Below, in pieces: positions 13,736 to 59,145 of a stretch of 64,000 nucleotides of DNA (within the stretch, counting starts at the first letter, position 1; every line of letters starts with the position of its first letter). Under the pieces are notes generated by a model that worked only from the letters and a program-made list of their open reading frames with translations, was not told the DNA's origin and searched no databases. Origin of the DNA: Antedon mediterranea. Its lineage: Eukaryota > Echinodermata > Crinoidea > Comatulida > Antedonidae. The DNA is taken from positions 1,201,922-1,265,921 of the forward strand of contig NC_092678.1 in NCBI RefSeq assembly GCF_964355755.1, written 5' to 3'. Position numbers and translations under genes: made by a program.

Positions 13736-13739
13736 TAAA

Positions 13740-13855: not shown

Positions 13856-13867
13856 TTTGTACTAATT

Positions 13868-14015: not shown

Positions 14016-14039
14016 ATTGAATTCAATTTGCAAACAAAA

Positions 14040-14165: not shown

Positions 14166-14179
14166 TTTTCGATTGATGC

Positions 14180-14510: not shown

Positions 14511-14514
14511 GGAT

Positions 14515-14702: not shown

Positions 14703-14765
14703 ACCTGAAAGAAAAAAAAAATTTTTCGAAGTGTTAAACCTTCGGTCAAAAATCAGAAATTTTTA

Positions 14766-15045
14766 AAAAAGTCGGTCCAAACCGCAAATATTCCGTGTTT
14801 TACCATTTTATGTCGGTCCAAACCGCTACTATTCCATGTTTTACAAAAGAGAGATGGTAAAACATGGAATATTTGCGGTTTGGACCGACATGTAAATGGT
14901 AAAACACGGAAAATAAGCGGTTTGGACTGACATGTTTTTAAAATGAGAAATGGTAAAACACGGAATATTCACGGTTTGGAACGACATATAAATGGTAAAA
15001 CACAGAAAAACAGCGGTTTAGCCTGACATATTTTCTAAAGTTTTG
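14766..15045. repeat. Foldback of about 47-bp units
   Basis: The left arm has two units of GTCGGTCCAAACCGC...TTCC(A/G)TGTTTTAC; the right arm has four in reverse orientation, beginning GTAAAACATGGAATATTTGC. The inner 33-base pair of arms around the 12-base loop (AAAAGAGAGATG, about 14845-14856) mismatches at only about three positions. A transcript would form a hairpin of about 80 bp. Confidence 0.85.
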
Positions 15046-25840: not shown

Positions 25841-28800
25841 ATATATAGATGGTACAATCGAAATGGGTCCAGTTATGTTTCTTTTAAACGGTTACCGTTT
25901 ATTAAAATAAATAGACCTACAAGTAAGGTAACCAATACTATATGAGAATTTATAATTGCATTTTCATAAGTTATTTATTTAAAGGTAAAAAAGAAAATCC
26001 CCACAAGAAAATTCCAATCTCTGAAAAGATAAAAATACATTTGATTAACCTGAAAAAGAATAAATATTGTTAGTTGCACATTATGATATTAACTGGGTTG
26101 GGTTGAAAATTATGAAATAGAATTAATTTTATTTGCACCATCATCAAATTGATTTAGGCTACGCAAATGGAAAATAAATAATATATAGATGGTACAATCG
26201 AAATGGGTCCAGTTATGTTTCTTTTAAACGGTTACCGTTTATTAAAATAAATAGACCTACAAGTAAGGTAACCAATACTATATGAGAATTTATAATTGCA
26301 TTTTCACAAGTTATTTATTTAAAGGTAAAAAAGAAAATCCCCACAAGAAAATTCCAATCTCTGAAAAGATAAAAATACATTTGATTAACCTGAAAAAGAA
26401 TAAATATTGTTAGTTGCACATTATGATATTAACTGGGTTGGGTTGAAAATTATGAAATAGAATTAATTTTATTTGCACCATCATCAAATTGATTTAGGCT
26501 ACGCAAATGGAAATAAATAATATATAGATGGTACAATCGAAATGGGTCCAGTTATGTTTCTTTTAAACGGTTACCGATTATTAAAATAAATAGACCTACA
26601 AGGAAGGTAACCAATACTATATGAGAATTTATAATTGCATTTTCATAAGTTATTTATTTAAAGGTAAAAAAGAAAATCCCCACAAGAAAATTCCAATCTC
26701 TGAAAAGATAAAAATACATTTGATTAACCTGAAAAAGAATAAATATTGTTAGTTGCGCATTATGATATTAACTGGGTTGGGTTGAAAATTATGAAATAGA
26801 ATTAATTTTATTTGCACCATCATCAAATTGATTTAGGCTACGCAAATGGAAAATAAATAATATATAGATGGTACAATCGAAATGGGTCCAGTTATGTTTC
26901 TTTTAAACGGTTACCGTTTATTAAAATAAATAGACCTACAAGTAAGGTAACCAATACTATATGAGAATTTATAATTGCATTTTCATAAGTTATTTATTTA
27001 AAGGTAAAAAAGAAAATCCCCACAAGAAAATTCCAATCTCTGAAAAGATAAAAATACATTTGATTAACCTGAAAAAGAATAAATATTGTTAGTTGCACAT
27101 TATGATATTAACTGGGTTGGGTTGAAAATTATGAAATAGAATTAATTTTATTTGCACCATCATCAAATTGATTTAGGCTACGCAAATGGAAATAAATAAT
27201 ATATAGATGGTACAATCGAAATGGGTCCAGTTATGTTTCTTTTAAACGGTTACCGTTTATTAAAATAAATAGACCTACAAGTAAGGTAACCAATACTATA
27301 TGAGAATTTATAATTGCATTTTCATAAGTTATTTATTTAAAGGTAAAAAAGAAAATCCCCACAAGAAAATTCCAATCTCTGAAAAGATAAAAATACATTT
27401 GATTAACCTGAAAAAGAATAAATATTGTTAGTTGCACATTATGATATTAACTGGGTTGGGTTGAAAATTATGAAATAGAATTAATTTTATTTGCACCATC
27501 ATCAAATTGATTTAGGCTACGCAAATGGAAATAAATAATATATAGATGGTACAATCGAAATGGGTCCAGTTATGTTTCTTTTAAACGGTTACCGTTTATT
27601 AAAATAAATAGACCTACAAGTAAGGTAACCAATACTATATGAGAATTTATAATTGCATTTTCATAAGTTATTTATTTAAAGGTAAAAAAGAAAATCCCCA
27701 CGAGAAAATTCCAATCTCTGAAAAGATAAAAATACATTTGATTAACCTGAAAAAGAATAAATATTGTTAGTTGCACATTATGATATTAACTGGGTTGGGT
27801 TGAAAATTATGAAATAGAATTAATTTTATTTGCACCATCATCAAATTGATTTAGGCTACGCAAATGGAAATAAATAATATATAGATGGTACAATCGAAAT
27901 GGGTCCAGTTATGTTTCTTTTAAACGGTTACCGTTTATTAAAATAAATAGACCTACAAGTAAGGTAACCAATACTATATGAGAATTTATAATTGCATTTT
28001 CATAAGTTATTTATTTAAAGGTAAAAAAGAAAATCCCCACGATAAAATTCCAATCTCTGAAAAGATAAAAATACATTTGATTAACCTGAAAAAGAATAAA
28101 TATTGTTAGTTGCACATTATGATATTAACTGGGTTGGGTTGAAAATTATGAAATAGAATTAATTTTATTTGCACCATCATCAAATTGATTTAGGCTACGC
28201 AAATGGAAATAAATAATATATAGATGGTACAATCGAAATGGGTCCAGTTATGTTTCTTTTAAACGGTTACCGTTTATTAAAATAAATAGACCTACAAGTA
28301 AGGTAACCAATACTATATGAGAATTTATAATTGCATTTTCATAAGTTATTTATTTAAAGGTAAAAAAGAAAATCCCCACAAGAAAATTCCAATCTCTGAA
28401 AAGATAAAAATACATTTGATTAACCTGAAAAAGAATAAATATTGTTAGTTGCACATTATGATATTAACTGGGTTGGGTTGAAAATTATGAAATAGAATTA
28501 ATTTTATTTGCACCATCATCAAATTGATTTAGGCTACGCAAATGGAAATAAATAATATATAGATGGTACAATCGAAATGGGTCCAGTTATGTTTCTTTTA
28601 AACGGTTACCGATTATTAAAATACCTACAAGGAAGGTAACCAATACTATATGAGAATTTATAATTGCGTGTTTATAAGTTATTTATTGACATCTATAAAA
28701 AGAAAATCTCAAAAACAAAAATAGAAAAACTCCAATCTCTGAAAGAATAAAAACACATTTGATTAACCTGAAAAAAAAATGTTGTTAGTTGGGTCCAGTT

Positions 28801-38117: not shown

Positions 38118-38585
38118 GTTGATGGTAAAATTAATTCTCTGTTTCTTTGTATCTTTTTTATTTTTTTTTAATTAAATATGGTAATAGCCATATTAAATAA
38201 ACCTGAAATTTTTTAAATTACTATTTACAGTTATACCTTTTTTTTTTTAAATTTCATATGGTAATATCGGCTAGTTTCAGAGATTTGAAACAATACCAAG
38301 TTAAAATAAAAGAAGATATTCATTTTGTTTGTGTGTATGTTGGTAGCAATCCCTATTTTCCAAGATCAACATAATTTCCTTGTGTATCAAGTATTAAATA
38401 AAAAATATCGATTAAGTACAAAATGTGGTAAAGACTAGTGTACGTTCTATACAGGGCCATAGCGAGAGGTAAAAAATAGATGAAGCAAAGATGTTTTAAA
38501 TATAATTAGTAATATAAAATTCAAAATTCCAGACAAGCTAACCGCCTCATCTGCCTTGACATAAAGTTTTAGGGTTTGAAATAAT
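38118..38585. other. AT-rich intergenic
   Basis: T-rich tracts near 38155 and 38240; no features recognised. Confidence 0.5.
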
Positions 38586-38715
38586 GAGCACACTCTACTA
38601 GCGCAGTTGAGATGTTATACAGCATTGTATCAGTCAATGTCACACCGTCACAACTTTGACCTTCAACCTCAACATCATTTCCAACATTTTCTGCAAGTCT
38701 CAGGTTGTGCCTCTA
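38586..38715 (-). pseudogene. Exon X, copy 1 (unknown protein end)
   Basis: Minus-strand: acceptor TCTTTTAG, then an open frame RHNLRLAENVGNDVEVEG, QSCDGVTLTDTMLYNIS, ending HYFKP and a stop near 38575. Diverged copies lie at 44690-44776 and 45618-45697 and keep the N.VENDVE..G.SCD.VTL core. I cannot name the protein. The copies travel with the SPT6 modules. Whether this copy is expressed is unknown. Confidence 0.5.
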
Positions 38716-38769
38716 AAAGATAAAACACAAAAACAAAATATTAAGTATTATTAAACGGCGAAGCACTAA

Positions 38770-38995
38770 CATATTGATATCAACAAGTAGTTCATACGGG
38801 GGAGCACTAACATATCAATATCAACAAGTAGTTCATACGGGGGAGCACTAACATATTAATATCAACAAGTAGTTCATACGGGGGAGCACTAACATATTAA
38901 TATCAATAAGTAGTTCATACGGGGGAGCACTAACATATTAATATCAACAAGTAGTTCATACGGGGGAGCACTAACATATTAATATCAACAAGTAC
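38770..38995. repeat. 41-bp minisatellite
   Basis: About five and a half copies of GGGGGAGCACTAACATATTA + ATATCAACAAGTAGTTCATAC. Single units of the same sequence lie at 44818-44865 and 45731-45775, so it expanded only in this module. Confidence 0.93.
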
Positions 38996-39240
38996 CACTC
39001 TCTAGCTGGATCCACCCCCTGGAAACAGGAACCATGCAACCCAAGTGCCACTCTCCTGGATCCACCCCCTGGAAACATAATACAACGAAACTGCTTTGTC
39101 ATGCTTAAATCAAAATAATAATTTATTATATTAATTATATTATAATAATAACTTTTCATGTCTGGTTGGGGAATACTACGTACTTGACCTTCTTCATCGG
39201 ACCTTGACCTTTTTACAAAAAATAAAATATGTAAGGCTGA
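38996..39240. repeat. Segmental-duplication spacer
   Basis: CCAAGTGCCACTCTCCTGGA, CCACCCCCTGGAAACATAAT and GGGGAATACTAC recur in the same order near 44895-45015 and 45808-45915. Confidence 0.75.
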
Positions 39241-39256
39241 AAAAAAAGTTTTTAAA

Positions 39257-39535
39257 ATGTACCTTTAAACTCAGTAGAGTTGATAAAAGTTTCAAAGTAC
39301 CATCATTGACGTCATAATGCTCAGACTCATCAAATGTGATATATATTGGATCCATTACGTACTTAAATGTAGTTATGTTGTGTACGTAACCATCAAAGAA
39401 CACTTGCATTTCAGCATTGAAGGCTTCATCTTCACCACAACTGGTTGGACAATTTCTAGTAGGTAGCTGTGGCGTCTTTCAAACTACAACTACATTTTGT
39501 TCCATTGTGCAATTCTGCAATTTAAAACATTGTAA
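39257..39535 (-). pseudogene. Exon Y, copy 1 (unknown protein)
   Basis: Minus-strand: acceptor TTGCAG at about 39520, then NCTMEQNVVVV, an in-frame TGA, then KTPQLPTRNCPTSCGEDEAF, NAEMQVFFDGYVHNITTFKY and VMDPIYITFDESEHYDVND, ending LSTLLSLK before a GT donor. Partial copies lie at 43381-43432 and 46012-46225. The Cys pattern suggests a structured domain but I recognise no family, and it does not match the SPT6 regions I know. The TGA makes this copy a pseudo-exon unless the acceptor lies further in. Confidence 0.5.
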
Positions 39536-39788
39536 TATTACAATCATTATCTTAAATGCATCTCATAGGTTGGTGATTATTTTTTAACTAAGCATGCACC
39601 TGATGCACACTTGCTCCGGAATTTTGCATCAAAGCGTCAACATTTTCCTCCTATAATTTTAACTTCTAAGCCGCCACTGGAAATAAACCAAAAGTAATAA
39701 TCGTAGCTTGGAACAGATCTGACAGCGTCTAGGCTTTGATTAGCTTCTACTATTTCATAGATGAAATATCATGAATGCATGTAACTGC

Positions 39789-40860
39789 AGGGTGTCACGA
39801 AAGCTCAGACCACGAAAGCTCAGACCCCCTAAGACCTAAGATCACGAAAGCTAAGACCCAACACCTAAGATTACAAATATTTATCTTTCGCACCTGCCTT
39901 GTATTTTAACTCCCAACATTTATTCTGAATACCACACCTTAGAATTGGCACTTTCATGAAAAAGAATCACATAAAAAGTAACAAATACATTTTTAAATTG
40001 ATGATTTTACAGACGTTTTTCTCGCACACAAAATGACTAGCCTACACCGTACAGTAGGCCTACCCCATGGGCCATGTTCAATGTTTTTGTTTCTATGGAA
40101 CGTCAAAAGAGCAAAAATTATATAGAGGGCTGAAAACTCTGTGGAGTCCATCTACAGTGTGGATGGAACAATGTAAAATTAAAATTGTAATGATAATAGT
40201 ATAATCATGCAAGTACGAAGAAATAAATACTGGCAAATAAATTTTAACTTAAAAGGTTTTTTGTTTCGTTTTCTTTCTGTTTTTATACTTGTACTATTAT
40301 TGTTGCTCTTTTGGCGCTCCATAGAAACAAAAACATTGAGCGGGGAGCTCGAGGAGTTACATTACAGTATACAAAGAAACACGCCTGTAAAATCATCAAT
40401 TTAAAGGATTTATTTATTTGTTATGTGTTTCTCCTTCTGAAAGTACTTATAAGTCCTAATTTTAAAGTGTGGTGTTCAGGATAAAGTTAGTCAACAAATT
40501 ATTTGGAGTCAAAATACAAGAAAGGCAGGTGCGTAAGAAAAACATCCTCTGAAGCAACACAATGGAGTAAATATATACCAACAAACAACCCGTCAAGTTT
40601 GTTTGTTGTAAAGAAAAAATATACATTTACTCAACGGGCGAAAATAATGTGAGTTTATCTATGTTTTGCGGTAGTATTAAATTATATTTATGGTAATAAA
40701 TGAAACCTACTGTGTTTAAAATTATGTATGGATAAACAAGTATTGTTTTTAAGCTGTAGTATATCTTAGTATTTGTAATCTTAGGTGTTGGGTCTTAGCT
40801 TTCGTGATCTTAGGTCTTAGGGGGTCTGAGCTTTCGTGGTCTGAGCTTTCGTGACACCCT
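39789..40860. mobile_element. Foldback hAT-like element with 8-bp target duplication
   Basis: Perfect terminal inverted repeats of about 85 bp start AGGGTGTCACGAAAGCTCAG and contain repeated CACGAAAGCT(C/A)AGACC words. GTAACTGC flanks both ends (39781-39788 and 40861-40868), the 8-bp duplication typical of hAT elements. Beyond the terminal repeats the arms stay complementary: GCACCTGCCTT.. and TTGATGATTTTACAG.. in the left arm match the right arm reversed, to about 40105 and from 40305. The right arm carries an extra 230 bp (about 40540-40765) that is itself palindromic. No transposase is present. Confidence 0.9.
40207..40404 (+). CDS. 65-codon frame with a membrane segment inside the foldback
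   Basis: MQVRRNKYWQ, then a strongly hydrophobic run FLFRFLSVFILVLLLLLFW, then RSIETKTLSGELEEL. A basic N-terminus plus a single hydrophobic segment is the layout of a type II membrane anchor (as in Golgi glycosyl- or sulfotransferases). It spans the loop and part of the right arm. It may be a captured first exon or a chance frame; there is no other support. Confidence 0.2.
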   Translation: MQVRRNKYWQINFNLKGFLFRFLSVFILVLLLLLFWRSIETKTLSGELEELHYSIQRNTPVKSSI

Positions 40861-40971
40861 GTAACTGCATTCTATTTTCCCATAGTGGACAATTAAATGA
40901 ATTTGAAAAAAAGAAGCAAGTTTAAGTTGATGTTGTAGAGAGTGGGAAGTGGTTGTTTTACCTTGCTACTT

Positions 40972-41066
40972 GGCTTTATAATAACACTCTTTGGTCCATA
41001 TCCAAGTTTCTCTGCCTGTTTGAAGGCAATGTTGTAAAATGATGGATGAACAGTAACACGTTAATG
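40972..41066 (-). pseudogene. SPT6 first SH2 exon
   Basis: Minus-strand reading VHPSFYNIAFKQAEKLGYG, then PKSVIIKPSSK followed by a GT donor at 40971-40970. This corresponds to the start of the tandem SH2 domain of SPT6, which binds the phosphorylated RNA polymerase II linker. Just upstream the frame is broken (a TAA before RVTVHP). It lies in the collinear module A (40972-43045). Confidence 0.85.
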
Positions 41067-41318
41067 TAAGCTGTGAAGAACAAATATTTACTGCCTCATC
41101 TGTTGCATCATGCTTGTAGAAAAATTCTGTGGCTCCCATTCTCATTTGCTATCCTGGAGGTGGTATGAGCTTCTGCTTGTTAGATCTACCATAAACCTAT
41201 CAACATAAGATGAGGAAATCTGTGAAAATGAGAAAAAGTCGTCCCAAACAAGAATTTTATTTAAATAGCATTGCTTTAAATACTAATTAAAATACAAATA
41301 GTATTTTGGTAAACCTAC

Positions 41319-41458
41319 CTTCACTCTATCTTCTGGGTTTATAACATGTTTATCACTAATTGCTTTTGTTTGAATGAATTCCATCAACCCATTATCAAGA
41401 TGCACTTTGACATCGATTGCTAGACCTGGGCAGTTCCACCGTCAAAATGACTCCACAC
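41319..41458 (-). pseudogene. SPT6 S1-domain exon, copy A
   Basis: Acceptor CAG at 41459-41461, then VWSHFDGG; a one-base deletion; [37 protein letters not shown] and a GT donor at 41318-41317. The (V)RLDNG...GFI.TK..SDK pattern is the SPT6 S1 domain. It lies between the WQCPFC exon and the SH2 exon, as in true SPT6 genes. Copy B at 43782-43915 has the same layout. Confidence 0.9.
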
Positions 41459-41666
41459 CTGAACAAAATCAAATTAATAAAATTAGAAACATGAAAAAGA
41501 AAAACACACATATTACATGGACACTGAACAGCATGTACGGGAAGATTAGTATCCAAGCTGGAGATGACTGATAGACCATAATTTTTCCTCTCATACTACA
41601 ATAATAATTTATGTAGATATTTTGCACAAAATTAATATTTGTTAAATATTGTAATGTCTTAAGTAC

Positions 41667-41813
41667 CTCACGTAGTTCAGGAAAGTCATCCTGTAAACAG
41701 AATGGACACTGCCAGACCAGTATCATTTTTACACACTGTGTTGGCACTATTGAATTTCTCACCATGTGGACAACGACGAGCAATTTGTATTACTTGCCAT
41801 AGCACCAATATTC
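41667..41813 (-). pseudogene. SPT6 exon with WQCPFC motif, copy A
   Basis: Acceptor CTGCAG, then ILVLWQVIQIARRCPHG, CKNDTGL; a two-base frame break; VWQCPFCLQDDFPELRE; GT donor at 41666-41665. SPT6 proteins have an LWQCPFCQ.D.FPELSE-like segment just before the S1 core. Decayed copies with added stops lie at 44116-44263 and 45096-45240. Confidence 0.9.
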
Positions 41814-41872
41814 CTGCAATCAAATAAATTTAAATAAGTAATTCAATAACCTTGCAATGTTATTACATTTTA

Positions 41873-41891
41873 ATGGGGGGGGGAGGGGGGT
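41873..41891 (+). other. G-run, possible G-quadruplex
   Basis: GGGGGGGGGAGGGGGGG in an AT-rich intron-like region. Confidence 0.5.
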
Positions 41892-42117
41892 ATGCCTTTC
41901 TGTATGTTTACATTTTATGTGTAGTTTTGCTGTGCATTTGTCTACATTTTAATCCATCATTTTTAATGATTCAATCTTTGTAATACAACATTTTCAAAAT
42001 TTTGTCTGCTTTCTGTAAATTTGTTATACCTGAATAAATAAAAAATTAAAATTACATTCTTTCTTCAAATTTCCAGTTGAATAAAGGATGATTAACACAT
42101 TTTTCTCTGTACCTTAC

Positions 42118-42210
42118 CAATATAAAATGTTGCCGGTGTTTCCTTGGTCCACATCCGGAATCGCTCTTCAGGTGTCACGTCTTAGAATATAGACCTCAAA
42201 TCTTTGTACA
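42118..42210 (-). pseudogene. SPT6 exon TPEERF..TKETP..FYI, copy A
   Basis: Minus-strand LYKDLRSIF, in-frame TAA, DVTPEERFRMWTKETPATFY, I, then a GT donor after TATTG. This is the SPT6 segment between the DLD region and S1. Copy E (46690-46800) has an extra 30 bp encoding YDIRAEL before KDLRS, so copy A also carries a deletion. Confidence 0.85.
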
Positions 42211-42368
42211 AAGTAATTCTTTATTTTCCATAGTTCTAATAAACCAAGCATATTCATGTAAAATGGTAGAAAGAATAACTTTATAGTAGGTGAGTTTCCA
42301 TACATGTACTGAAGTGCTACAAAGTCTAGACTACAACTGCTACCAGTAATAAACATAACGTTCGTTAC

Positions 42369-42573
42369 CTGTCTTTCTAACTCCTCTGCAAAAGCATCCA
42401 AATCTGATTCTCATAGCTTCTCAGGATTACCAATATAATTCAAAACAGTGGCAGGATTAACGTCCACAGCTGACTCATCATACTCTAAAGCATCTACTGC
42501 CATCTTACGTGACCAATCGTATTTCTCCAGGTGCACATGTGTACTGTCGAGTACCTCCACATACGCCTCAGTA
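42369..42573 (-). pseudogene. SPT6 DLD-region exon, copy A
   Basis: Acceptor at 42575-42574, then [45 protein letters not shown], an in-frame TGA, ESDLDAFAEELERQ and a GT donor. [25 protein letters not shown] followed by LDAFAEELERQ is among the most conserved stretches of SPT6. Here it is complete except for one stop, which argues for recent decay. Confidence 0.92.
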
Positions 42574-42765
42574 CTGTAAACATTAAGAGGTTCCATTAAT
42601 AAATTATTTTTTTGGCATCATTGTATGAATACTTCATTTCATTATTTTATTTATTGGCACAAACAGCCACAACAAGGGCCTTAATATCACAGGTGATTAC
42701 CACATCCCCTGATTAACTGATATAAAAGTAGCTATGTTGAATGTTTACCTTTCACCTATCTTTGC

Positions 42766-42860
42766 TGTATCAATCTTAATAAAACCAGCACAATTTATAA
42801 ATACTTTGGACCCAAATTCCAACATTTCCGAAATTGAGGTTCCCACTTTGTGTTGGGCTA
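42766..42860 (-). pseudogene. SPT6 exon [15 protein letters not shown], copy A
   Basis: The frame QHKVGTSISEMLEFG, then [20 protein letters not shown], then a GT donor (GGTAAAC). In SPT6, GPKVF.NCAGF.KIDTA.LGD directly precedes the Y.EVLD exon, as here. A second copy at 47120-47195 retains the [13 protein letters not shown] words. Confidence 0.9.
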
Positions 42861-42939
42861 TAATAAAATATATACGCCAAATGTTTAATTAATAAATTGT
42901 AAATATAGCCAAGATTGTGAGTACCTACCTGGTATGGGA

Positions 42940-43050
42940 TCCCTCTGCAAGATTTGGAGTCTGAAAAATCATAGCAATATTATCCTCAATGAGTTCCACA
43001 TTGACAGGCATTATCTGCTGATCACAGATCACACATATTGACCTTCTAAA
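42940..43050 (-). pseudogene. SPT6 exon IMPVNVELIEDNIAMIFQ, copy A
   Basis: After a TTTTAG acceptor: RRSICVICDQQIMPVNVELI, EDNIAMIFQTPNLAEGS. It resembles the SPT6 segment with P..VELVD..VA..Y.NSK.AE. Copy at 47890-48020 has a longer start, RRSILDIQKSIDELETKQQ. It lies upstream of the KVFINCAGF exon in both modules, which supports the call. Confidence 0.65.
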
Positions 43051-43059
43051 ACAACAAAA

Positions 43060-44300
43060 ACATCATTTAGTTTTATTAAACAAAGCAAAGGGACAATCAT
43101 CTTTTGTATTGTAGTTATTTTGCTGGTACCATTTCTCTCAACCCCCTATAGAAGCAACATCCGAAATTGAGGTTCCAACTTTTGTGTTCACTTTCCATGT
43201 CTACTCTTGGGACTATATGCCAAATGTTTAATTAATAAATTGTAAAATAGCAAAAATTGTGAGTACCCACCTGGTATGGGATCCCTGAAATGTTCCTTGA
43301 ATCAGTGAAGTAAAGCGTTGAGTGAACTATGTATATGTTGCCGATAGTGATAACCATCTGGCATCAGCATTACGTATTCTGTGGCGTCTTACAAACTCCA
43401 ATTACATTTTGTTCCATCATGCAATTCTGAAAAAAGGTTTAGATATTTTTTCATCAAAACATTGTAATATTACAGTTATTATCTTAAATGCATCTCATAG
43501 GTTGGTGATTATTTTTTAACTCAGCATGCACCTAATGCATACTTGCTCCGGATTTTGCACACCAAAGATTGCATGGATGGCAATACTATCTCTTGTATGT
43601 TAACAACAGTGAAAACTCATTAAGTAGATATTGTGATGCACCATTGACGTCACAGCAATTGACGGCGAGCGCGATTGTTCTGAAATCATATGTACATCCC
43701 TAATACGTTGTTAAAATATGGTCCTCGGTCAAGTTGTCCTTTAAATACTAATTAAAAGACAAATGGTAATTTCGTTAAACCTACCTTCTGGGTTTATAAC
43801 ATCTTTATCACTAATTGCTTTTGTTGGAATAAAACCCTCCAAGCCATTATCAAGACGCACTTGACACCGATTGGTTGACCTGGGCAGTTACCACCGTCAA
43901 AATGACTCAAAACCTGAACAAAATCAAAGGAATAAAATTAGAAACATGATCAAGAAAAACACACATATTACATGGACACTGCACAATAGCAAGGTAAGAT
44001 TAGTATCCAAGCTGAAGATGACTGATAGACCATATTTTTTCCTCTCATACTAAAATAATAATTTATGTAGATACTTTGCACAAATATTTGTTCAATATTG
44101 TAATATCTTAAGTACCTCACTTAGTTCAGGAAAGTCGTCCTGTAAACAGAATGGACACAGACAAGTATCATCTTTACACACTGGGTTGGCATTATCAAGT
44201 TCCTAACCACATGGACGTTAACAAGCAATTTGTATTACTTGGCCAAGCTGAATCCGGTTCAAGCCTTAGGTTTTTTTGTTTCAATGTCTGTCAAATTAAA
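43060..44300 (-). pseudogene. SPT6 module B
   Basis: Contains a repeat of the intron after the IMPVNVELI exon (43145-43290 matches 42820-42965), an exon Y scrap (43381-43432), an S1 exon (43782-43915: FDGGNCPGQPIGVK, one-base deletion, then a shifted LDNG region) and a WQCPFC exon copy (44116-44263: CPFCLQDDFPELSE, with the TGG of WQ deleted and stops in the upstream half). Order S1 downstream of WQCPFC on the minus strand is correct for SPT6, but the DLD exons are absent. Confidence 0.8.
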
Positions 44301-44356
44301 ACAGTAAATAAAATAAATATAAAATCATATTTAGCATAATAGGGTAGGAGTAGATA

Positions 44357-44455
44357 TAATAATAATAATTTAATAATAATTTAGGTATTTGTATAGCGGC
44401 AGAATCAACTAAACCGAAGTAAAAATCAAAGGCGCTTATATGGGAAGTTAAAAGG
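44357..44455 (-). repeat. Dispersed repeat with (AAT)n and GGCGCTTATAT
   Basis: TAATAATAATAAT, TTTAGGTATTTGTATAGCGG, then TCAAAGGCGCTTATATGGG. It resembles, reversed, the GGCGCTATATAAAT + (TTA)n tails. Confidence 0.5.
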
Positions 44456-44559
44456 ATGCATTTTAAGTAATTTTTTTTAAAATAGCAATAGAAGTTGATT
44501 TAGTAAAATGGTGAGGGAAAATTATTTTATAGAGAATACATGCATTATGCATTAGGTAG

Positions 44560-44790
44560 GCATACCTTAATAATTGCGCCTGCTTTTCTTGGGCCCAGTC
44601 AGCACACAAACTGTATCAATGACTGTGTGTGAGGATCAACCCATTATCAAGATGCACATTGACACAGATTTCTTGTCTTGGGCAGTTAGCACCATCAATG
44701 TCACATCATCACAACTTTTACCTTCAACCTCAACATCATTTTCAACATTTTTTTTGCAAATTTCAGGTTGTGCCTCCTAAAAGATAAAAC
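44560..44790 (-). pseudogene. Chimeric SPT6/exon X module C
   Basis: On the minus strand a TTTTAG acceptor is followed by exon X (KNVENDVEVEGKSCDDVTLM), running without an intron into a short S1 scrap, and then into CGLGPRKAGA-type sequence ending at a GT donor near 44563. In SPT6 the GLGPRK helix-hairpin-helix segment lies N-terminal to S1, so the order here is inverted relative to the protein. Confidence 0.75.
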
Positions 44791-45095
44791 ACAATAAAAA
44801 TATTAAGTATTATTAAACGGGGGAGCACTAAACATATTAATATCTAAAAGTAGTTCATAATGTCATTTTAGCCGTCAAAAGTGAGAGCATGCAACCCAAG
44901 TGCCACTCTCCTGGATCCGCCCCCTGGAAACATAATACAACGAAGCTGCTTTGTCATGCTTAAATAATTAATTTTTTTTTTATTATGAATTTCTAAGTCT
45001 GGTTAGGGAATACTACTTGACTTTATTATGTAAATAAAGTAAAGCAATATAAGTAAATACACAAATATTTGTTCAATATTGTAATATCTTAAGTA

Positions 45096-45710
45096 CCTCA
45101 CTTAGTTCAGGAAAGTCGTCCTGTAAAAAGAATGGACACGGACCAGTATCATCTTTACGCACTGGGTTGGCATTATCAAGTTCCTAACCACATGGACGTC
45201 AACAAGCAATTTTTATTACTTGGCCAAGCTGAATCCGGTTCTCAAGCCTTTGGTTTTCTTGTTTCAATGTCTGTCAAAATAAAACAGTAAATAAAATAAA
45301 TATAAAATCATATTTAGCATAATAGAGTAGGAGTAGATATAATTCAACAAATTAAGTTACAGAGAATACATGCATTATGCATTAGGTAGGCATACCTTAA
45401 TAATTGCACCTGCTTTTCTTGGGCCCAGTCCGCACACAAACTGCATCAATGACTGTGTGAGGATGCTCAACAGTATGGTTTATATCCACTCCAACCTCGT
45501 TCACATGGTAAATAAATTGTGTTTATCACTAATTGCTTTTGTTGGAATGAATCCCATCAACCCATTATCAAGACGCACATTGACACAGATTTCTTGTCTT
45601 GGGCAGTTACCACCATCAATGTCACATAATCACAACTTTTACCTGCAAACTCAACATCATTTTCAACATTTTGTGCAAGTTTCAGGTTGTGCTCCTAAAA
45701 GATAAAACAC
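45096..45710 (-). pseudogene. Chimeric SPT6/exon X module D
   Basis: From 45710 down: acceptor CTTTTAG, exon X (EHNLKLAQNVENDVEFAGKS), direct join to S1 ([23 protein letters not shown]), direct join to [20 protein letters not shown], a one-base shift, QSLMQFVCGLGPRKAGAIIK and a GT donor at about 45394. Further down, 45240-45096 is a decayed WQCPFC exon. FIN.VNEVGVD..R...HP..Q.L.QYVCGLGPRK is a hallmark of SPT6. This copy best shows the chimeric order. Confidence 0.85.
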
Positions 45711-46011
45711 AAATTAAAAATATTATTAAACGGGGGAGCACTAACATATTAATATCAGCAACTAGTTCATAATGTCATTTTAGCCGTCAAAAGTGAGAGC
45801 ATGCCACCCAAGTGCCACTCTCCTGGATCCGCCCCCTGGAAGCTGCTTTGTCATGCTTAAATAATTATTATAATTATATTTTTATTATGACTTTCCAAGT
45901 CTGGTTGGGGAATACTACTTAACACTCTTCATTGGACCATTACCTACTTTGTCAAAAAATAAAAATATGTAAGACTAAAAAAAGCTTTCAAAATGTACCT
46001 GAAAACCAAAG

Positions 46012-46225
46012 TTCCATCATTGACATCATAATAATAATACTCGGACTCGACATGTGAAATATATTGGATCCATTACATACTTGAACGTAGTTATGTTGTG
46101 TACGTAACCATCAAAGAACACTTGCATTTCAGCATTGAAGGCTTTATCTTCGTCACAACTGGTTGGACAATTTCTAGTAGGTAGCTGTGACGTCTTCTAC
46201 AACTACATTTTGTTCCATCATGCAA
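46012..46225 (-). pseudogene. Exon Y, copy 3
   Basis: The frame TRNCPTSCDEDKAFNAEM, QVFFDGYVHNITTFKYVMDP matches copy 1 nearly perfectly, then degrades (frameshift after IYFT). The upstream KTPQ part is deleted. Confidence 0.6.
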
Positions 46226-46324
46226 TTCTGCAATTTAAAACATTGTAATATTAAAATCATTATCTTAAATGCATCTCAAGCTGTCTCCTGTTCTCAAGCC
46301 TTTGGTTTTCTTACGTCGTAATGT

Positions 46325-48020
46325 AGGCATACCTTAATAATTATGTCTGCTTTTCTTCGGCCCAGTCCGCACACAAACTGCATCAATATGTCCACTCCAA
46401 CCTCGTTCACACAGTAAATAAATTGTGTTTATCACAAATTGCTTTTGTTGGAATGAATCCCATAAACCCATTATCAAGACGCACATTGACAGATTTCGTC
46501 CTATGGAGATAGCTTGACACAGTCGGAGAGTGTTTTGCCGGAATTCACTCTATAGTCGACGAACAATTTGTTTTACTTGCCCTACCACCAATTTTCCTGC
46601 AATAATATAATTACATTCTTTATTCAAATTTCTTCAGTTTCCAGGTAAATAGAGGATGATTAACAACACATTTTTCACTGTAACTTACCAATATAAAATT
46701 AGCCAGTGTTTCTTTCGTCAACATCTGGAATCGCTCTTCGGGGGTCACTATTTGGAATAAAGATCTCAAATCCTTGCATCAATTGGTTAATTCTGCACGG
46801 ATATCGTACAAAGTAATTGTTTTGTTTCCATAGTACTAGTAAACAAAAAAAATTTAATATTTATGACATATTCATATAAAATGGTAGAAAGAATAACTTG
46901 ATAGTAGTCAAGTTTCTATCCATGTACTGTAAGTGCTACAAAGGCTAGACTACAACTGTAGCTTCTCAAGAATCTCATTCAAAGCATCTGCAGGACTAGC
47001 GTCCACAGCTGACTGTCATACTCAAAATCATCCACTGCCATCTTACAAATGTTTTGGGTGTACATGTGTATGGTCAAGCACATCCCCTGATTAACTGATA
47101 TAAAAGTAACTATGTTGAATGTTTACCTTTCACCTATCTTTGCTGTATCAATCTTGATAAAACCAGCACAATTTATGAATACTTTGGGACCCAAACTGCA
47201 AGTTGTCACAAGCTGTGTCCGGTTCTCAAGCCTTTGGTGTTCTTGTTTCAATGTCTGTAAATTAAAACAATAAATAAAATAAATATAAAATCATATTTAG
47301 CATAATAGGGTAGGAGTAGATATAATTCAACAAATTATTTTATAGAGAAATGCATTCTGCATTAGGTAGGCATACCTTAATAATTGCTCCTGCTTTTCTT
47401 GGGTCCAGTCCACACACTAACTGCATCAATGACTGTGTGTTACTTTATATCCACTCCAACCTCGTTCACACAGTAAATAAATTCCTGATAAGTGTGTTTA
47501 TCACTAATAGCTTTTGTTTGAATGAATCCCATGAACCCATTATCAAGACGCACTTTTACACCGATTTGTCTTGGGCAGTTACCACTGTACTTCGTGCTAT
47601 AGAGATAGCTTGATGCAGTTGTTGATGGTATTGCTGGAATTCACTCTGTAATCGAAAATAATACTAAAGTAATGCTTAACTTATTACTCGATAGCAACAA
47701 CAATGACAATAATCCAGTAGCTGTATTCACCAATCATACTTATTATTAACAATTAACAAAAAGTAAAGTTTATTTTTTTAAGCAACATTTTCATCATTTC
47801 ACACAACATCACAACAGATACTCATTGTAGGAAAGTGGTACCATGTGGAAATAGTTATCTTATAATAACAAAAAAAAAATGTTTACAATACCTTTGCAAT
47901 ATTTGATGTCTGAAAAATCATAGCAACATTATCCTCAATGTTCCACATTGACAGGCATTATCTGCTGCTTGGTTTCCAGTTCATCGATAGATTTCTGAAT
48001 GTCCAGGATTGACCTTCTAA
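46325..48020 (-). pseudogene. SPT6 module E (longest rearranged copy)
   Basis: Minus-strand pieces from high to low coordinates: RRSILDIQKSIDELETKQQ + IMPVNVE (48020-47890); S1 scrap joined to [13 protein letters not shown] and QLVCGLDPRKAGAIIK (47590-47375); [16 protein letters not shown]-type exon (47195-47120); degraded DLD exon (47095-46965); YDIRAELTN, TGA, CKDLRSLFQIVTPEERFQML (46800-46690); GKLVVGQVKQIVRR exon with a TAG (46605-46545); then a second S1 + GLGPRK chimera (46500-46325). All are interrupted by stops or shifts. Confidence 0.85.
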
Positions 48021-48370
48021 AACACCAAGAAAAAAATATTACTAATATTATTATTCAACTATGTTAATACTGGACAGTTTGATGTCTGCTGTTCCAGAAA
48101 TGTCTTGTGTCCTGTATTGGAGGAGTGGACTGTGAATAGACATCAGCAACTGCTTTAAAAATTATTTGTAGGTCTATTGTATTATTATACAAAGCAATAT
48201 AGACTAAATACTTGTTTGTCTACAAAATAGATGTTTGAACTAACCTGGACTCTGCCATAACACCACATGAGCATTTTTACTTCACAGGGAGTTTTTCAAT
48301 ATCCACGTCCTTTAACTCCTTGTCTTATTTCAAATAACTTTGGTACTTTTGAGAAAGTTTGGCAGATAAA
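48021..48370. other. Intergenic, nothing recognised
   Basis: No exon with SPT6 similarity was recognised upstream of the module E start. Confidence 0.4.
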
Positions 48371-52080: not shown

Positions 52081-55000
52081 TTAAAACCTTAATGTTAACT
52101 ATGCCCAATTATATTGCATAATGGCAATACATATACACTATACAAGCTAGGTCTTACTGCTTGTAAGAAAAGGAATAAGGTTTTGAAAACAAGATTATTT
52201 TTCTGCATATAACAGCACTATATACAACAATCTACAATCAATGGTTGATGGCAATTGAAAAGGAAGAGACACAGTATACCTAATATTGGTACAAGTGTAT
52301 TTAAGCAAGAAGCTTATAGCATTAAAATGGAAATGAGAAAAAGATGTAGATGCAAAGCTCTTAGAGCATGCAAAAGTGGTTATTAGCGTTCTAGGTAATA
52401 GGACTACAAAAGGAGTGACGTTGGGGCACAGGGGAAACTATATATCACTATTTTGTCTTATACCAAGTAAAGGTTTAAGAATCTTTAAAGGTTAGGTAAA
52501 GACATATAGGGATTGAAATAATCAAGGTGTAGATGCAAGAGGGTAGTGTGCAAAGCTCTTAAAGCATGCAGAATGGTTGATTTTTTAAAAAGTGATGTTT
52601 TGGTACAGGTGAAACGATATCACCATTATGTCTTATACCAAGTAAAGGTTTAAGAACAGTATGGATTTTTATTTAGTCAACAACATTGAAATAATCAAGG
52701 TAAATAATAATTTCTGGTCATGTCAACAGAGCAGTAACTAAACCATAAGGAAAGGACGAGATCATTACACTGAATGTTCAAAAAGATGCAGGGATATAGT
52801 TGAAAATAAAGGGATACAAGTCATCCACAGAATTGGCCATTTTGAAAATGTAAATGCCTTTGATGAAGATACTTTGTTTAAGATAACTATCGGGTTATCA
52901 ATTAGAACTATAATGCCTGATTATATTGCATAAAGGCAATTCATAAACACTATACAAGCTAGGCCTTACGGGTTGTAAGAAAAGGAATAGTGCTTTAAAA
53001 AAAAGATTGTTTTTAAGAGCTAGTTCTGCATATAACAACACAATACAACAATCTATGAACAATGGTCGATGACAATTAAAAAGGAAGGAAAAAGAGACGC
53101 AGTATAACTAAGATTGGTACAAATGTATTTAAGCAAGAAGCTTATAGCACCAAGAATGGGAATGGGAAAAAGATGTAGATTCAAGAGGCTAGTATGATTC
53201 CAGGCTGATAGCCTTCTGAATGCTCTATCAGCCTGGAAGCAGCAAAGCAGGTTTTAAAAAAAGATTGTTTTTAAGACCTAGTGCTGCATATAACAGCACT
53301 ATACAACAATCTACAATCAATGGTTGATGCGATTGAAACGGACGAACCACAGTATACCTAATATTGGTACAAGTGTATTTAAGCAAGAAGCTTATAGCAT
53401 AAAAAAAAATGAGAAAAATATGTAGATGCAAAGCTCTTAGAGCATGCAAAAGTGGTTATTAGCGTTCTAGGTAATAGGACTACAAAAGGAGTGATGTTTG
53501 GGCACAGGGGAAACAATATATCACTATTTTGTCTTATACCAAGTAAAGGTTTAAGAATCTTTAAAGGTTAGGTAAAGACATATAGCATTGAAATAATCAA
53601 GGTGTAGATGCAAGAGGGTAGTGTGCAAAGCTCTTCAAGCATGCAGAATGGCTGCTTTTTTAAAAAGTGATGTTTTGGTACAGGTGAAACAATATCACCA
53701 TTATGTCTTATACCAAGTAAAGGTTTAAGAACAGTCTGGATTTTTGTTTAGTCAACAACATTGAAATAATCAAGGTAAATAATAATTTCTGGTCATGTCA
53801 ACAGAGCAGTAACTAAAGCATAAGGAAAGGACGAGATCATTACACTGAATGTTCACCAGGATGCAGGGATATAGTTGAAAATAAAGGGATACAATTGTCA
53901 TCCACAGAATTGGCCATTTTGAAAATGTAAATGGCTTTGATGAAGATACTTTGTTAAAGATAACTATCGGGTTATCAATTAGAACTATAATGCCTGATTA
54001 TATTGCATAAAGGCAATTCATGAACACTATACAAGCTAGGCCTTACGGGTTGTAAGAAAAGGAATAGTGCTTTAAAAAAAAGATTGTTTTTAAGAGCTAG
54101 TGCTGCATATAACAACACTATACAACAATCTATGATCAATGGTCAATGACAATTAAAAAGGAAGGAAAAAGAGACGCAGTATAACTAAGATTGGTACAAA
54201 TGTATTTAAGCAATTAGCTTATAGCACCAAGAATGGGAATGGGAAAAAGATGTAGATTCAAGAGGCTAGTATGATTCCAGGCTGATAGCCTTCTGAATGC
54301 TTTGTTTAAAAAAGCAATCACTTTTGCATGCTCTTGAGCATGCAAAAGTGGTTAATTAGCGTTCTAGGTGATACAAAAGGATGCAGGGATATAGTTGAAA
54401 ATAAAGGAATACAAGTCATCCACAGAATTGGCCATTTTGAAAATGTACATGGCTTTGATAAAGATATTTTTGATGGAGATATTTTTTTAAAGATAACTAT
54501 CAGGTTATCAATTAGAACTATGCCTGATTATATTGCATAAAGGCAATTCATAAACACTATACAAGCTAGGCCTTACGGGTTGTAAGAAAAGGAACAGTGC
54601 TTTAAAAAAAGATTGTTTTTAAAACCTAGTGCTGCATATAAGAGCACAATACAACAATCTACGATCAATGGTTGATAGCAATTAAAAAGGAAAGAAAAAG
54701 GAAACACAGTATACCTAATATTGGTACAAATGTATTTAAGCAAGAAGCTTATAGCACCAAGAATGGGAATGGGCAGGTTTTAAAAAAAGATTGTTTTTAA
54801 GACCTAGTGCTGCATATAACAGCACTATACAACAATCTACAATCAATGGTTGATGCGATTGAAAAGTAAGAGACACAGTATACCTAATGTTGGTACATAT
54901 GTATTTAAGCAAGAAGCTTATAGCATTAAAAATGGAAATGAGAAAAAGATTTAGATATAAGAGGATAGTGTGCAAAGCTCTGATTTGTTTTTTAAAAAAA
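52081..55000. repeat. Tandem segmental duplication of about 1,075 bp
   Basis: TAATGCCTGATTATATTGCA lies at 52911 and 53988 (1,077 apart), with a shorter copy at 54520. CAGGTGAAAC(G/A)ATATCACC lies at 52605 and 53679 (1,074 apart). Sub-blocks (AAGATTGTTTTTAAGA.., ATTTAAGCAAGAAGCTTATAG) also recur near 52305, 53125, 53380, 54715 and 54905. One frame, GCRDIVENKGIQVIHRIGHF + NGFDEDTLLKITIGLSIRT, ending DYIA, stays open in two or three copies but has no recognisable family. Confidence 0.85.
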
Positions 55001-55740: not shown

Positions 55741-56575
55741 CACACATGCAAATGGTGTATGAAGCCAGCCTGAAAGCACCAAAGTTCTAGGTGATAGGAC
55801 TACAAAAAGAGTGACGTTTGAGCACAGGTGAAACAATATCACCATTATGTCTTATAACCAAGCAAAGGTTTAAGAATTTTTAAAGATTAGGTAAAGACAT
55901 ATAGCATTGAAATAATAAAAGGTAAATAATATTTGATTTAATATTTTGAATTCATTCTATAGACTTCAATTTATTAGGTTTCTGGTGTGAACCATAAGGA
56001 AATGACGAGAATGATCACTACACTGAATGATCAAAAAGCTGCAGGAGTGTGCAGCCAGCCTAATGCTGCAGGAGTGTGCAGCTAGCCTAATGATTCAGCA
56101 GGCCAAGCTGCCACGATTTGACAACACATTGGCCCATGCAAAAAAAAGATAGTGGCAGGTCAAGATGCCACATTTTGACCACATACAAACAGTATGTGAA
56201 GCCAGCATACTTGGGTTTAGGGTCAGGTCTTGTTACAGATCCAATATCTTAAAAACCTGTTATGACAGAAAAGTAGTGTTTGTAAAACTGCCATAGACAC
56301 AGAGGGTAAAGTTTTCTAGTTGTAGTACTACACGTTACTGAAAATGCAATCTAGTCAAAATACATATATAAATAAATGGAATTAGCTATTGTAACAAATT
56401 GCAATATTATGGTTCGTTATGGTCAGATGTTTTGTCCTGGTTTGTTATACTGTAGTATATTTTACTGTATGATATTTTACTAATAAATAACAGAATCTAT
56501 CAAATATGTTATCTGCATATAGATGCATATTAGCTGATGCCAACATACCAGTAAACAAATTATAAAAACATAATA
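55741..56575. other. Remnants of the preceding duplication, then noncoding DNA
   Basis: 55785-55960 repeats the TAGGACTACAAAAAGAGTGA, AAACAATATCACCATTATGT and GATTAGGTAAAGACAT block of 55035-55145. The rest is unrecognised. Confidence 0.6.
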
Positions 56576-58198
56576 TTTAGAATACAAAGATCTACAGACT
56601 TTTAAAAAACCAAAACGTTTATAAACTTGAAAAAAAAAGAGAAAAAAAATGAATACAAACAAAACAAAAACCACCTCTTCTCCAAGAGCCGTACATCCTC
56701 ATGCTTAAGTGTTGTTTTGGTTGTTCTGCCAACTAAGATGACAAACCAAAAAGGTCAATTTGATTTTACTATGAAGTACTCCAACAATTTGACATGAAAA
56801 TACCCACAGAAATTGGATACTAACCACCAGACTATGCATGTAGAGCAGACTCTACCATTGCTAGAGTGTGCCTACCGATGTTAAAGTGCGCCTACCGATG
56901 TTAGAGCAAGTCTACTGAAGATACGTGTGAGCCTATGGAAGAGTGCGTGCCTACGGAAGAGTGCGTGCCTACGGAAGAGTGCGTGCCTACGGAAGAGTGC
57001 GTGCCTACGGAAGAGTGCGATCCTACCGAAGAGTGCGATCCTACCGAAGAGTGCGATCCTACCAAAGAGTGCAATCCAACCATAGAGGACATGCCTACAT
57101 TAGAGTGCGAGCCTACCGAAGAGTACGAGCCTACATCTGCTGAAGAAGCTGCTAAGAAGTACAAGCCTACAGCTGCTTCAGAAGTACAAGCCAACCGCAG
57201 CTGAGAAGTACGAGCCTACAGCTGCTACAGAAGTACCAGCCTATCACTGCTAAAGAGTGCGAGCCTAGAGCTGCTAAAGAGCGCAAGCCTACAGCTGCTA
57301 AAGAAGTACAAGCCTATACAGCTGCTAAAGAGTACAAGCCTACACCTGCTATAAATTGCGAGCCTACAGCTGCTAAAGAGTGGGAGCCTACAGCTGCTAA
57401 AGAGTGCGAGCCTAACGCTATTAAGAATGTGAGCCTAACGCTATTAAGAATGTGAACTAACTCTATTAAGAATGCAAGCCTAACGCTATTATGAATGCGA
57501 GCCTACTGCTATTATAGAGTGCAAGCCTAACGCTAATGAGTGCGAGTCTACGCTAGTAAGAATGCGAGCCTACGGCTATTAAGAGAGTGAACCTAACTCT
57601 AGTAAGAGTGCGAGCCTAACGCTATTATGAGTGCGAACTAACTCTATTAAGAATGCGAGTCTAACGCTATTAAGAATGCGAGCCTACTGCTATTAAGGAG
57701 TGCAAGCCTAACTCTAGTAAGAGTGCGAGCCTAATGCTATTAAGAGTGTGAATCTAACACTAGTAAGAGTGCAAGCTTAACGCTATTATGAGTGCGAGCC
57801 TAACGCTACCAAGAGTGCTAGCCTAACGCTATTAAGAGTGTGAAGTAGATCCCCTATAACATCAGTAGACAAACGCTAACACCAGTAGACAAACGCTAAC
57901 ACCAGTAGACGAACTTTAACAATGGTAGAGTCTACTCTACATGCATTTGTCCAGTGGTTAATAACCAATTTCCATAGGTAATTCCATGTCAAATCATTGG
58001 AGAACTCCAAAGTCTAACCAAATTGGCCTTTTCGGTTTGCCTCTTAGTGGGCAGAACAACCAAAACAAAACAAAAAGCATGGGGATGTACAGGAGTCGGA
58101 GAGGAGGTAGTTTTACAAAGTACAAACAAGCAAACAAAACGTTTATAAACGTTTTGGATTTTTAAAAGTCTGTAGAGCTTATAACATAAAATTCTAAA
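56576..58198. mobile_element. Long-inverted-repeat element with minisatellite core
   Basis: Left arm 56576-56905 and right arm 57893-58198 are inverted copies. TCTACAGACTTTTAAAAA, CCAAAACGTTTATAAAC, TGTTTTGGTTGTTCTGCC, CAATTTGACATG-like and CTACCATTG words follow in order in the left arm and reversed in the right. The interior (56906-57892) is entirely minisatellite. There is no transposase and no obvious target duplication. The layout matches foldback-type elements. Confidence 0.85.
56935..57892 (+). repeat. 18-24-bp minisatellite with ECxPTE coding pattern
   Basis: 56938-57120 is 18-bp units GAGTGCGTGCCTACGGAA that read E-C-V-P-T-E, with the variable codon changing to D, N and E. The 89-codon frame (56935-57204) stays open through this part. 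From 57120 units become 23-24 bp (GAGCCTACAGCTGCTAAAGA, GCGAGCCTAACGCTATTAAG), which do not keep one frame. A protein is not supported beyond the open frame. Confidence 0.85.
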
Positions 58199-59145
58199 TA
58201 AAACAAAATTCTAAAAACGTTTTAAAATAAAACTGACCAAATTTTGTCTTCTAAGATCCATAGTTATTATTTTTCAGATTTATTTGTTGTTTTTTTTAAA
58301 AGGTCCATGCCTTGGTTGTTTTTTTTTAATGTCTTTGAAAAGGTTGATGCCTTGGTTGGTTAGTTGTTTATTTTTTAAATGTCTTTGAAAAGATTCATAT
58401 GGCAAAGCATGGTACACCATTTGTATTTGAAGAGTACCTTAGCATTATACTTAATTCTCAGAAGTAATATTTAAAATAAATGAGAACTTTAAAATTTCAA
58501 AAATGGTTGCCTCACCGACGATTTAAGCATAACAATCTTTCAAGAGAAGTTTTCAAGAGCTGTATATTTAAAAAATAAAATGATCTCAAAGCAAATAGTT
58601 TTCCTGTACCTTATTATATATGAAAAATCTTTGTCCAACTTGTAAGAGGTATAGTTAAAGTCCTGTCGTTTCACAATGTCGTGTCACTCATGATATGTCA
58701 TGTCACTCGCAATATCATATTGGTATGCAAAACAGGACACAAGACTAATTTTTTTTAATAGTAAGTATCTTCCCTACTTTTCCAAATTGCCCTTTGCTAA
58801 GAATAGTCGGGTGATGATGGCATGTTTGTGCGGGGTGGGAGACCCAGTGCTGTACACATTGACACAGGTCACATTGATAAGTGGCACACATTATACTTTT
58901 CTGTTTACAGTGCGAGTTACTTTTCCTAGGATGGCCTAGGCCTTCCTAGGAAAGACAGACTGTGGGTAAGAACTTAGCAGAACAAGTGCAATAGGAGAAT
59001 AAATTTCTGATGAGGTTCAAGGGATCATCTTGTACCCTATTCACTGTAATGAGTCACTATAAGGATATTTGCAGCAATGACATTAAAATTCAACCAGTTG
59101 TGTCCGACTATGCTTTTAAAAAAAATTTTTTTAGTCAGTTGAGAA
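58199..59145. other. AT-rich noncoding DNA
   Basis: 58280-58400 has two to three units of AATGTCTTTGAAAAG(G/A)TT(G/C)AT + GCCTTGGTTG. The frame at 58700-58939 (79 codons) is unrecognised. Confidence 0.5.

Follow-up and report, generated by a model that had tools for sequence, protein, structure and literature searches.

Decayed SPT6-plexin chimeras in duplicated blocks, and a satellite derived from one SPT6 exon, on a chromosome of the crinoid Antedon mediterranea

Introduction

Stellate and Suppressor of Stellate are tandem repeats derived from a cellular gene, and Sdic of Drosophila melanogaster is a tandem family built from pieces of two genes. Here we describe a tandem array of decayed gene pieces in a 64,000-nucleotide stretch of DNA from the crinoid Antedon mediterranea (NC_092678.1, positions 1,201,922 to 1,265,921 of the forward strand; "the window" means this whole stretch). 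The pieces come from SPT6, an essential elongation-factor gene, and from a plexin gene. The window's own chromosome is called C9, so that the window is C9:1201922-1265921; the genome comprises 354.4 Mb in 18 contigs.

Stellate and its suppressor differ from the array in being a known regulatory pair. The LCR16a-NPIP core duplicons of primates are a closer parallel, although here the source is an essential elongation-factor gene, and one of its exons became a satellite. At both, interspersed blocks surround a rearranged gene piece, and fusion changes the structure of the gene; NPIP keeps an open frame and is under positive selection, whereas the copies that we read are broken and free of codon constraint (PMC7419210). 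All 31 annotated copies of Sdic had protein-coding potential (PMC7475035), while the copies described here have none. The AT-chX region of Drosophila has a heterochromatic cluster whose 21 repeated gene copies are a source of ovarian piRNAs. In the woodpecker (Esf2/ABT1) repeats of that region, as in the array, copies of a cellular gene with their introns were amplified at the DNA level on a single chromosome. The woodpecker copies are over 99% alike, annotated as genes, and expressed (PMC12470439); the crinoid copies are partial, chimeric, and decayed.

We class the array among the mosaic segmental duplications and the duplicated pseudogenes, as a distinct variant on account of its exon-born satellite and two-gene modules. 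We found no published report of an SPT6 pseudogene array or of such an exon-derived satellite array, in a search that most subscription papers lay outside. What makes the locus useful is that it preserves a legible fossil record of what became of one essential, single-copy gene: the donor itself, its chimera with a second gene, modules in tandem, blocks scattered along a chromosome, and a satellite. The satellite was born from 83 bp of coding exon, both donors are in the same genome, and the joins are legible to the single base. In our judgement, the steps of satellite birth and mosaic duplication are seldom all visible together.

Results

A tblastn search with a human SPT6 sequence as the guide identified an SPT6 gene on the minus strand of another contig (C3, about 37.689-37.704 Mb), and its matches covered human residues 90 to 1521. 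Twelve consecutive 3' exons of this gene, Ea to El, have GT-AG at every border and encode 666 amino acids without a stop; the best PDB matches of this product are SPT6 chains (E = 0, 1012.8 bits). Additional exons were found upstream of Ea by tblastn, and the strongest matches to the Pfam families HHH_7 and SH2_2, which are free of stops, lie at this gene. Thus, the intact SPT6 gene that the original prediction had proposed to look for elsewhere in the genome was found, in an apparently intact form, at 37.69-37.70 Mb of C3. Below, positions in this parent are counted along the SPT6 sense strand, starting at C3:37706000.

The motifs that had been recognized as SPT6, in several copies on the window's minus strand, do align on that strand to this one gene, with E values down to 0. 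Twenty block-shuffled versions of parent 11801-17000 gave no match at E = 1e-4. Apart from one 47-bp repeat match, all of the SPT6 pieces in the array derive from parent 11874-16980 (blastn). The genome searches scored the best candidates only (39 of 777, 13 of 14, 39 of 206, and 40 of 267), so the number of places reported here is a lower bound. Among the scored matches, SPT6 exons matched better than E = 0.2 only at the C3 gene and within C9 1.24-4.82 Mb, a 3.6-Mb stretch in which SPT6-derived DNA occurs at at least 10 places. The array of the window is one of these places. All 17 candidates of a scan with HHH_7 were scored. Of the 18 matches that resulted, 15 are on C9, 2 belong to the C3 gene, and a weak one is on C10 (E = 4.6), which we take to be due to chance, as we do a weak profile match on C8 (E = 0.24). 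DNA matches on other contigs were judged by their query positions to be dispersed repeats inside introns or array spacers.

The C9 copies come from the 3' half of SPT6. When we searched with 1156 amino acids of the parent protein (starting near human residue 337 and so lacking roughly the first 336 residues), all 53 matches among the best 40 of 267 candidates were at C3 or C9, and those on C9 began at residue 534. Comparison of the C9 loci by blastn to 17.5 kb of the parent brought in a single exon from upstream of this range (11874-12030) and, apart from it, short repeats only.

The second donor is a plexin gene. The original prediction had noticed an exon joined in front of two of the modules (C and D, below) and had called it unrelated. 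The exon is indeed present there, and it is plexin DNA: in the best copy of the exon (C9 3434762-3435016), acceptor and donor are both intact and the frame is open for 85 amino acids, and the surrounding 21.5 kb encodes the Sema, PSI_Plexin-B, TIG, and Plexin_cytopl domains in that order, all over the cut-off. (The assignment rests on these neighbouring domains, as the exon itself had no match over the cut-off in Pfam or PDB.) The gene lies at C9 3.42-3.45 Mb. DNA matches of the exon were confined to C9, and a weak hit on C8 (E = 0.7) also came up in the searches; the nine genome matches comprise eight array copies and the plexin gene. An unknown source for this exon can be rejected, given the intact-bordered copy beside the plexin gene at C9 3.4347 Mb. 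The array copies differ from the plexin locus at 12, 9, and 14 sites at the three codon positions, so there is no clear third-position excess.

SPT6 homology spans window 40866-48366 and plexin homology spans 38356-46276. The array had been placed at 38586-48020, and it is there, but its limits are 38356-48366, and 39790-40859 within it is a dispersed transposon. Of its 10011 bases, 5118 match SPT6, a further 1970 match plexin, 1076 fall in the range assigned to the transposon (39790-40866, slightly beyond its end as read), and 1847 are unassigned. The SPT6 and plexin pieces are all on the minus strand, and we describe them from high to low window coordinates. First is a fragment at 48223-48366 (parent 11874-12030, exon RDVPTFGALLDGEGEV..., 83% identical by blastn), followed by exon Ea with both splice sites (47874-48034; parent 12975-13146, 80%). 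Module A, the seed chimera (47095-47661), joins the 5' part of Eb (13221-13292), a piece of S1 (14987-15080), and the HhH-encoding Ec-intron-Ed (13557-13967). At 46557-47046 are a piece of Ee (14135-14219) and a run from Ef to the start of Eg with its introns (14306-14700, 86%). Module B (46274-46559) has Eb, an S1 piece (15015-15080), HhH exon Ec (13572-13605 and 13642-13706), and a piece of Ed, with more deletions. Plexin exon and intron DNA (45647-46276), which matches the 3.43-Mb gene of C9 twice, at 74 and 82%, then precedes module C (45060-45619), in which the plexin exon is fused to an S1 piece (14981-15080) that is followed by HhH Ec-intron-Ed (13572-13853) and Eg (14671-14844). Plexin fragments at 44695-45027 stand ahead of module D (43739-44698), which has S1 (14981-15044), the 3' part of HhH exon Ec (13626-13744), a piece of Ed (13766-13853), and then Eg, an intron, and S1 exon Eh (14671-15154).

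The lower part of the array begins with a short plexin fragment (43371-43450), the last of three plexin pieces interspersed with the SPT6 modules. At 42874-43379 are the end of El (16584-16745), a piece from downstream (16938-16980), Ea (12932-13132), and the end of El again (16677-16747). A collinear SPT6 module with its introns follows at 41093-42822 (parent 13861-14656 and 14652-15364; 75.6 and 76.8% identical, gaps included), and exon Ej with both splice sites is at 40866-41088 (15567-15799, 82%). Beyond the transposon, the low-coordinate end of the array (39713-38356) matches plexin 9676-11402 in order, with four matches of 69-84%; a 41-bp tandem array lies inside this fragment, at 38755-38994.

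The four joins of an S1 fragment to a more N-terminal segment (VNEVGVD/GLGPRK) that had been predicted are all present: in module A from 47585-47495 to 47499-47095, in B from 46491-46426 to 46424, in C from 45619-45520 to 45518, and in D from 44698-44635 to 44636. In module D, however, parent 15044 is joined to 13626 and the VNEVGVD part is lost. The entry into S1 (parent 13292 joined to 14987) is shared by six copies: module A of the window and the C9 loci L003 (2.636 Mb), L004 (2.673 Mb), L006 (3.370 Mb), L013 (4.814 Mb), and L015 (4.817 Mb). Because this join recurs at separate places on C9, it is ancestral and not an assembly error. In module A and its sisters, S1 is entered after CATAGCACGAAG, with a few bases added. 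In module A, L003, L004, and L013, S1 is left after GATAAACA or GATAAAGACA, into parent 13557-13559, and AAACA is present at both parent places of this exit; L006 and L015 have deletions of their own there. Modules B and C and an extra module E (in L003 and L004) leave S1 at 15080 and resume at 13572; the simplest view of them is that they are deletion derivatives. In modules C, D, and E, the S1 piece starts inside the plexin exon, and TTGA is common to both sources at the join.

A shared chimeric order had also been proposed, but not every module has it. By blastn against the parent, the S1-to-HhH join is absent from the 2.5-kb stretch at window 40.87-43.38 kb, and the copies at C9 2.87, 4.71, 4.75, and 4.78 Mb carry other joins. 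Those at 2.874 and 4.712 Mb share a join from 15698 to 13718, which is the trace that a tandem duplication of a 2-kb unit would be expected to leave, and in those at 4.754 and 4.776 Mb, 43 intervening bases separate 16725 from 12955. The window has a join from 16980 to 12932, from the El region to Ea. Since different copies have different joins, there were several rearrangements in this region and not just one.

The array sits in a larger segmental-duplication block. Window 33525-56038, whose outer limits were read in part, is homologous to C9 2.63, 2.67, and 3.37 Mb, with 88-98% identity over window 43.4-56 kb and 73-89% over 33.5-38.8 kb. Homology to the 2.63-Mb locus extends from window 33.5 to at least 56 kb; the 2.67-Mb locus was read as far as window 37 kb; and homology to the 3.37-Mb locus was last seen at window 37.35 kb, with 0.77 kb read beyond. 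The blocks at 2.635 and 2.672 Mb are direct copies, 36.8 kb apart, that are 98% alike over 8.9 kb, and the window matches the 2.67-Mb block over 5.5 kb at 95% and the 3.37-Mb block over 3.4 kb at 97%. Several loci that are over 90% identical for more than 1 kb, in which DNA from two donors (SPT6 of C3 and plexin of C9) is juxtaposed, characterize a mosaic segmental duplication. Within the block, window 52203-54373 contains a direct duplication of about 1.08 kb, with different numbers of matches at 2.63, 2.67, and 3.37 Mb.

In a tree of 20 modules, the a modules of different loci group together (0.99), as do the b modules (0.99) and the c modules, and d groups weakly with d/e; modules group mostly by position in the array rather than by locus. 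As like-positioned modules of different loci cluster, the modules had probably already multiplied when the blocks were copied. The six-copy entry join and this tree bear out the proposal that a rearranged seed module formed and was then amplified.

Outside of the window, one SPT6 exon has become a satellite with a 77-bp period. It occupies C9 4799416-4813342 (180.8 copies) and 4815425-4817066 (about 20 more), or about 200 units and 15.6 kb in two stretches, where these copy numbers are those of the assembly. The unit corresponds to parent 14124-14206, an 83-bp stretch of exon Ee. Because 77 is not divisible by 3, and because the consensus has TAA where the parent reads TCG, the satellite is non-coding. 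In the parent, the unit begins and ends with TGATTG and TGAATG, and this short imperfect match makes it likely that the first duplication occurred there. Elsewhere (13 of 14 candidates scored), the unit was found only singly, at 11 places on C9 and once within the C3 gene. SPT6 pieces flank the satellite on both sides, and the seed chimera lies between its two stretches and to the right. On the outside, the locus is flanked by DNA that resembles window 48.5-63 kb (65-85%) and 56.5-58.4 kb (70-80%), so that it seems to be an older sister of the block in the window. The second of these ranges is that of the tandem arrays at window 56554-58398, whose homologue beside the satellite is L017 501-1972. 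These arrays have units of 18 to 24 bp, and one stretch is open for 99 amino acids with PTEECV-type repeats.

The copies are broken but retain their introns: 1555 of 1769 aligned intron positions in the window are identical to the parent (87.9%). This shows that they are duplications at the DNA level, as the original prediction had claimed, and rules out an origin as retrocopies (processed pseudogenes). The stops and frame shifts that had been noticed are also there: in 977 aligned codons, the SPT6 exons of the window contain 11 stops, and 18 indels in them shift the frame. Among the 11 sources that we compared, all 11 have frame-shifting indels and 10 have stops. In aligned columns, the window is 91.8, 92.4, and 88.0% identical to the parent at codon positions 1, 2, and 3; this milder loss at positions 1 and 2 is what would be expected if the parent were constrained and the copy were not. 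Between block copies, we saw no third-position excess and hence no sign of coding constraint: relative to the window, substitutions at positions 1, 2, and 3 amount to 2.3, 1.5, and 1.8% for L003; 2.4, 1.4, and 1.6% for L004; and 3.5, 2.4, and 1.5% for L006, and introns of block copies differ by 1.3-1.8% (figures based on one or two top alignments at each locus). An intact-looking parent in the genome, introns, broken frames, and no coding constraint together identify SPT6 pseudogenes of the duplicated type.

Discussion

The best explanation, which we hold to be very probable, is that a duplicated genomic segment was rearranged at short matches, multiplied by unequal exchange, and left to decay neutrally. 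A genomic segment with the 3' half of SPT6 (parent 11874-16980, exons and introns) would have been copied from C3 to C9, where it ended up beside duplicated plexin DNA. Rearrangement at short matches, as in template switching or end joining, would then have placed a 94-bp piece of S1 between Eb and the HhH exon and joined S1 to the plexin exon. Unequal exchange would have produced more modules, and array-bearing blocks of about 20 kb or more would then have been duplicated along C9 (1.24, 2.64, 2.67, and 3.37 Mb). Separately, the 83-bp stretch of Ee would have closed on TGATTG/TGAATG to give the 77-bp satellite at 4.80-4.82 Mb. The copies would have decayed without coding constraint, and they resemble by-products in decay more than functional genes. 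The sources, the joins, the common ancestry, the lack of codon constraint, and the satellite are shown by the sequence, and the tree supports multiplication of the modules ahead of the blocks; the mechanism of recombination, the order of the earliest events, and the lack of a function are inferred. As the array at C9 3.366-3.370 Mb is about 54 kb from the piece of the plexin gene that we read, that neighbourhood, near 3.37 Mb, is a reasonable, if unproven, birthplace for the chimera.

Several observations weigh against this explanation. Plexin exons of the type seen at locus L007 have no Pfam match of their own. There was no clear sign of heterochromatin, as tandem repeats make up 1-11% of five 9-kb samples from inside C9 1.2-4.8 Mb and 0-5% of five from outside. 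The splice sites are also better preserved than expected. It had been claimed that splice sites remain, and 34 of the 35 GT/AG dinucleotides that we mapped in the window are kept, as compared to 844 of 1056 control dinucleotides at codon positions 1-2 across all exons, which are sites that the parent can hardly change (one-sided Fisher exact test, P = 0.0043), or to 149 of 176 within 15 bases of exon ends (P = 0.032). Pure neutrality does not predict such an excess, which we regard as a hint. The true significance is weaker, as the test counts related modules as independent. In the sister blocks, 22 of 22, 22 of 22, and 17 of 17 splice dinucleotides are kept, but these are the same modules by descent; over 11 sources, 137 of 149 are kept, including L003, L004, and L006, which have the window's modules in common. 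Seven other loci, with 2-13 sites each, show no excess.

The kept splice sites point weakly to a spliced non-coding RNA, and beyond this hint the sequence gives no indication of a function. The arrays might be transcribed and spliced into non-coding RNA, or might be a piRNA or siRNA locus that acts in trans on SPT6 or plexin mRNA. Exact 21-mers would be available for this: 374 of the 1980 21-mers of the spliced donor exons Ea-El are present in the C9 copies that we compared, 262 of them in the window alone. The AT-chX region, where repeated gene copies give piRNAs (PMC12470439), provides a precedent. We nevertheless consider this explanation to be unlikely, given the lack of codon constraint between block copies and a splice-site excess that is based on related modules and is absent from the seven other loci (which have few sites). 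Also, pseudogenes in the piRNA clusters of primates generally show no sign of selection (PMC6461890). A more specific version is less probable still: arrays of the window's type could be genes for spliced non-coding RNAs that lower SPT6 or plexin mRNA in the germ line, with exons that decay and splice sites that are kept. If this were true, an essential elongation factor would be dosed by its own rearranged fragments; and if the kept splice sites prove to be real, the arrays would be candidates for gene fragments that regulate their own parent.

Fragments of two genes that have the same orientation, retain introns, and occur at several places might also be explained if a Helitron- or Pack-type transposon had taken up pieces of SPT6 and plexin and spread them. 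We find this very improbable: the copies are confined to one 3.6-Mb stretch of one chromosome, and the four block copies are homologous beyond the array on both sides, with no common termini seen at the array ends (Helitron ends were not scanned for by motif). A young chimeric gene like Sdic, with at least one working copy, is just as doubtful. Some chimeric exons do have a plexin acceptor and an SPT6 donor site, and splice sites are kept, but the frame-shifting indels in every source, the stops in 10 of 11, and the lack of a third-position excess argue against a working copy, and no stop-to-stop frame in the array exceeds 120 amino acids, a length reached on the opposite strand. Least credible is an error in the assembly, or a mis-joining, of a normal SPT6 gene: repeats are difficult to assemble, but an intact-looking gene is present on C3, the joins recur in differing copies at several separate places, and there are no Ns in the window or in L001-L013.

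Other features of the window

The dispersed transposon within the array (39790-40859, about 1.07 kb) has inverted ends, is flanked by 10-base copies of TGCAGTTACA (a target duplication), and sits in SPT6-derived intron DNA; it came in later than that DNA. When its inner 601 bases were used as the query, at least 40 full-length matches of 95-100% identity (including itself) were found on 11 contigs among the best 40 of 1202 candidates, and one of the matches listed, on C10, is 100% identical.

The window is rich in repeats, with tandem repeats making up 27.5% of it. Several unrelated tandem arrays are at 7-3822, 10738-13711, 16011-18191, and 25841-28791; their units are 44 bp, 21 bp (a unit beside its own reverse complement), 158 bp, a 51-bp family, and 339 bp. 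A tRNA origin for the 158-bp array (11.9-13.7 kb) was considered and rejected, as no tRNA was detected there by ARAGORN under the bacterial code. Nine open frames of the window were scanned against Pfam, and just one had a match over the cut-off: a fragment of an integrase core at 8291-8668 (rve, 1.1e-8), which we read as Ty3-like. Samples from elsewhere on C9 (L019, L023, and L025, at 2.2, 0.4, and 12 Mb) contain stop-free stretches of over 400 amino acids.

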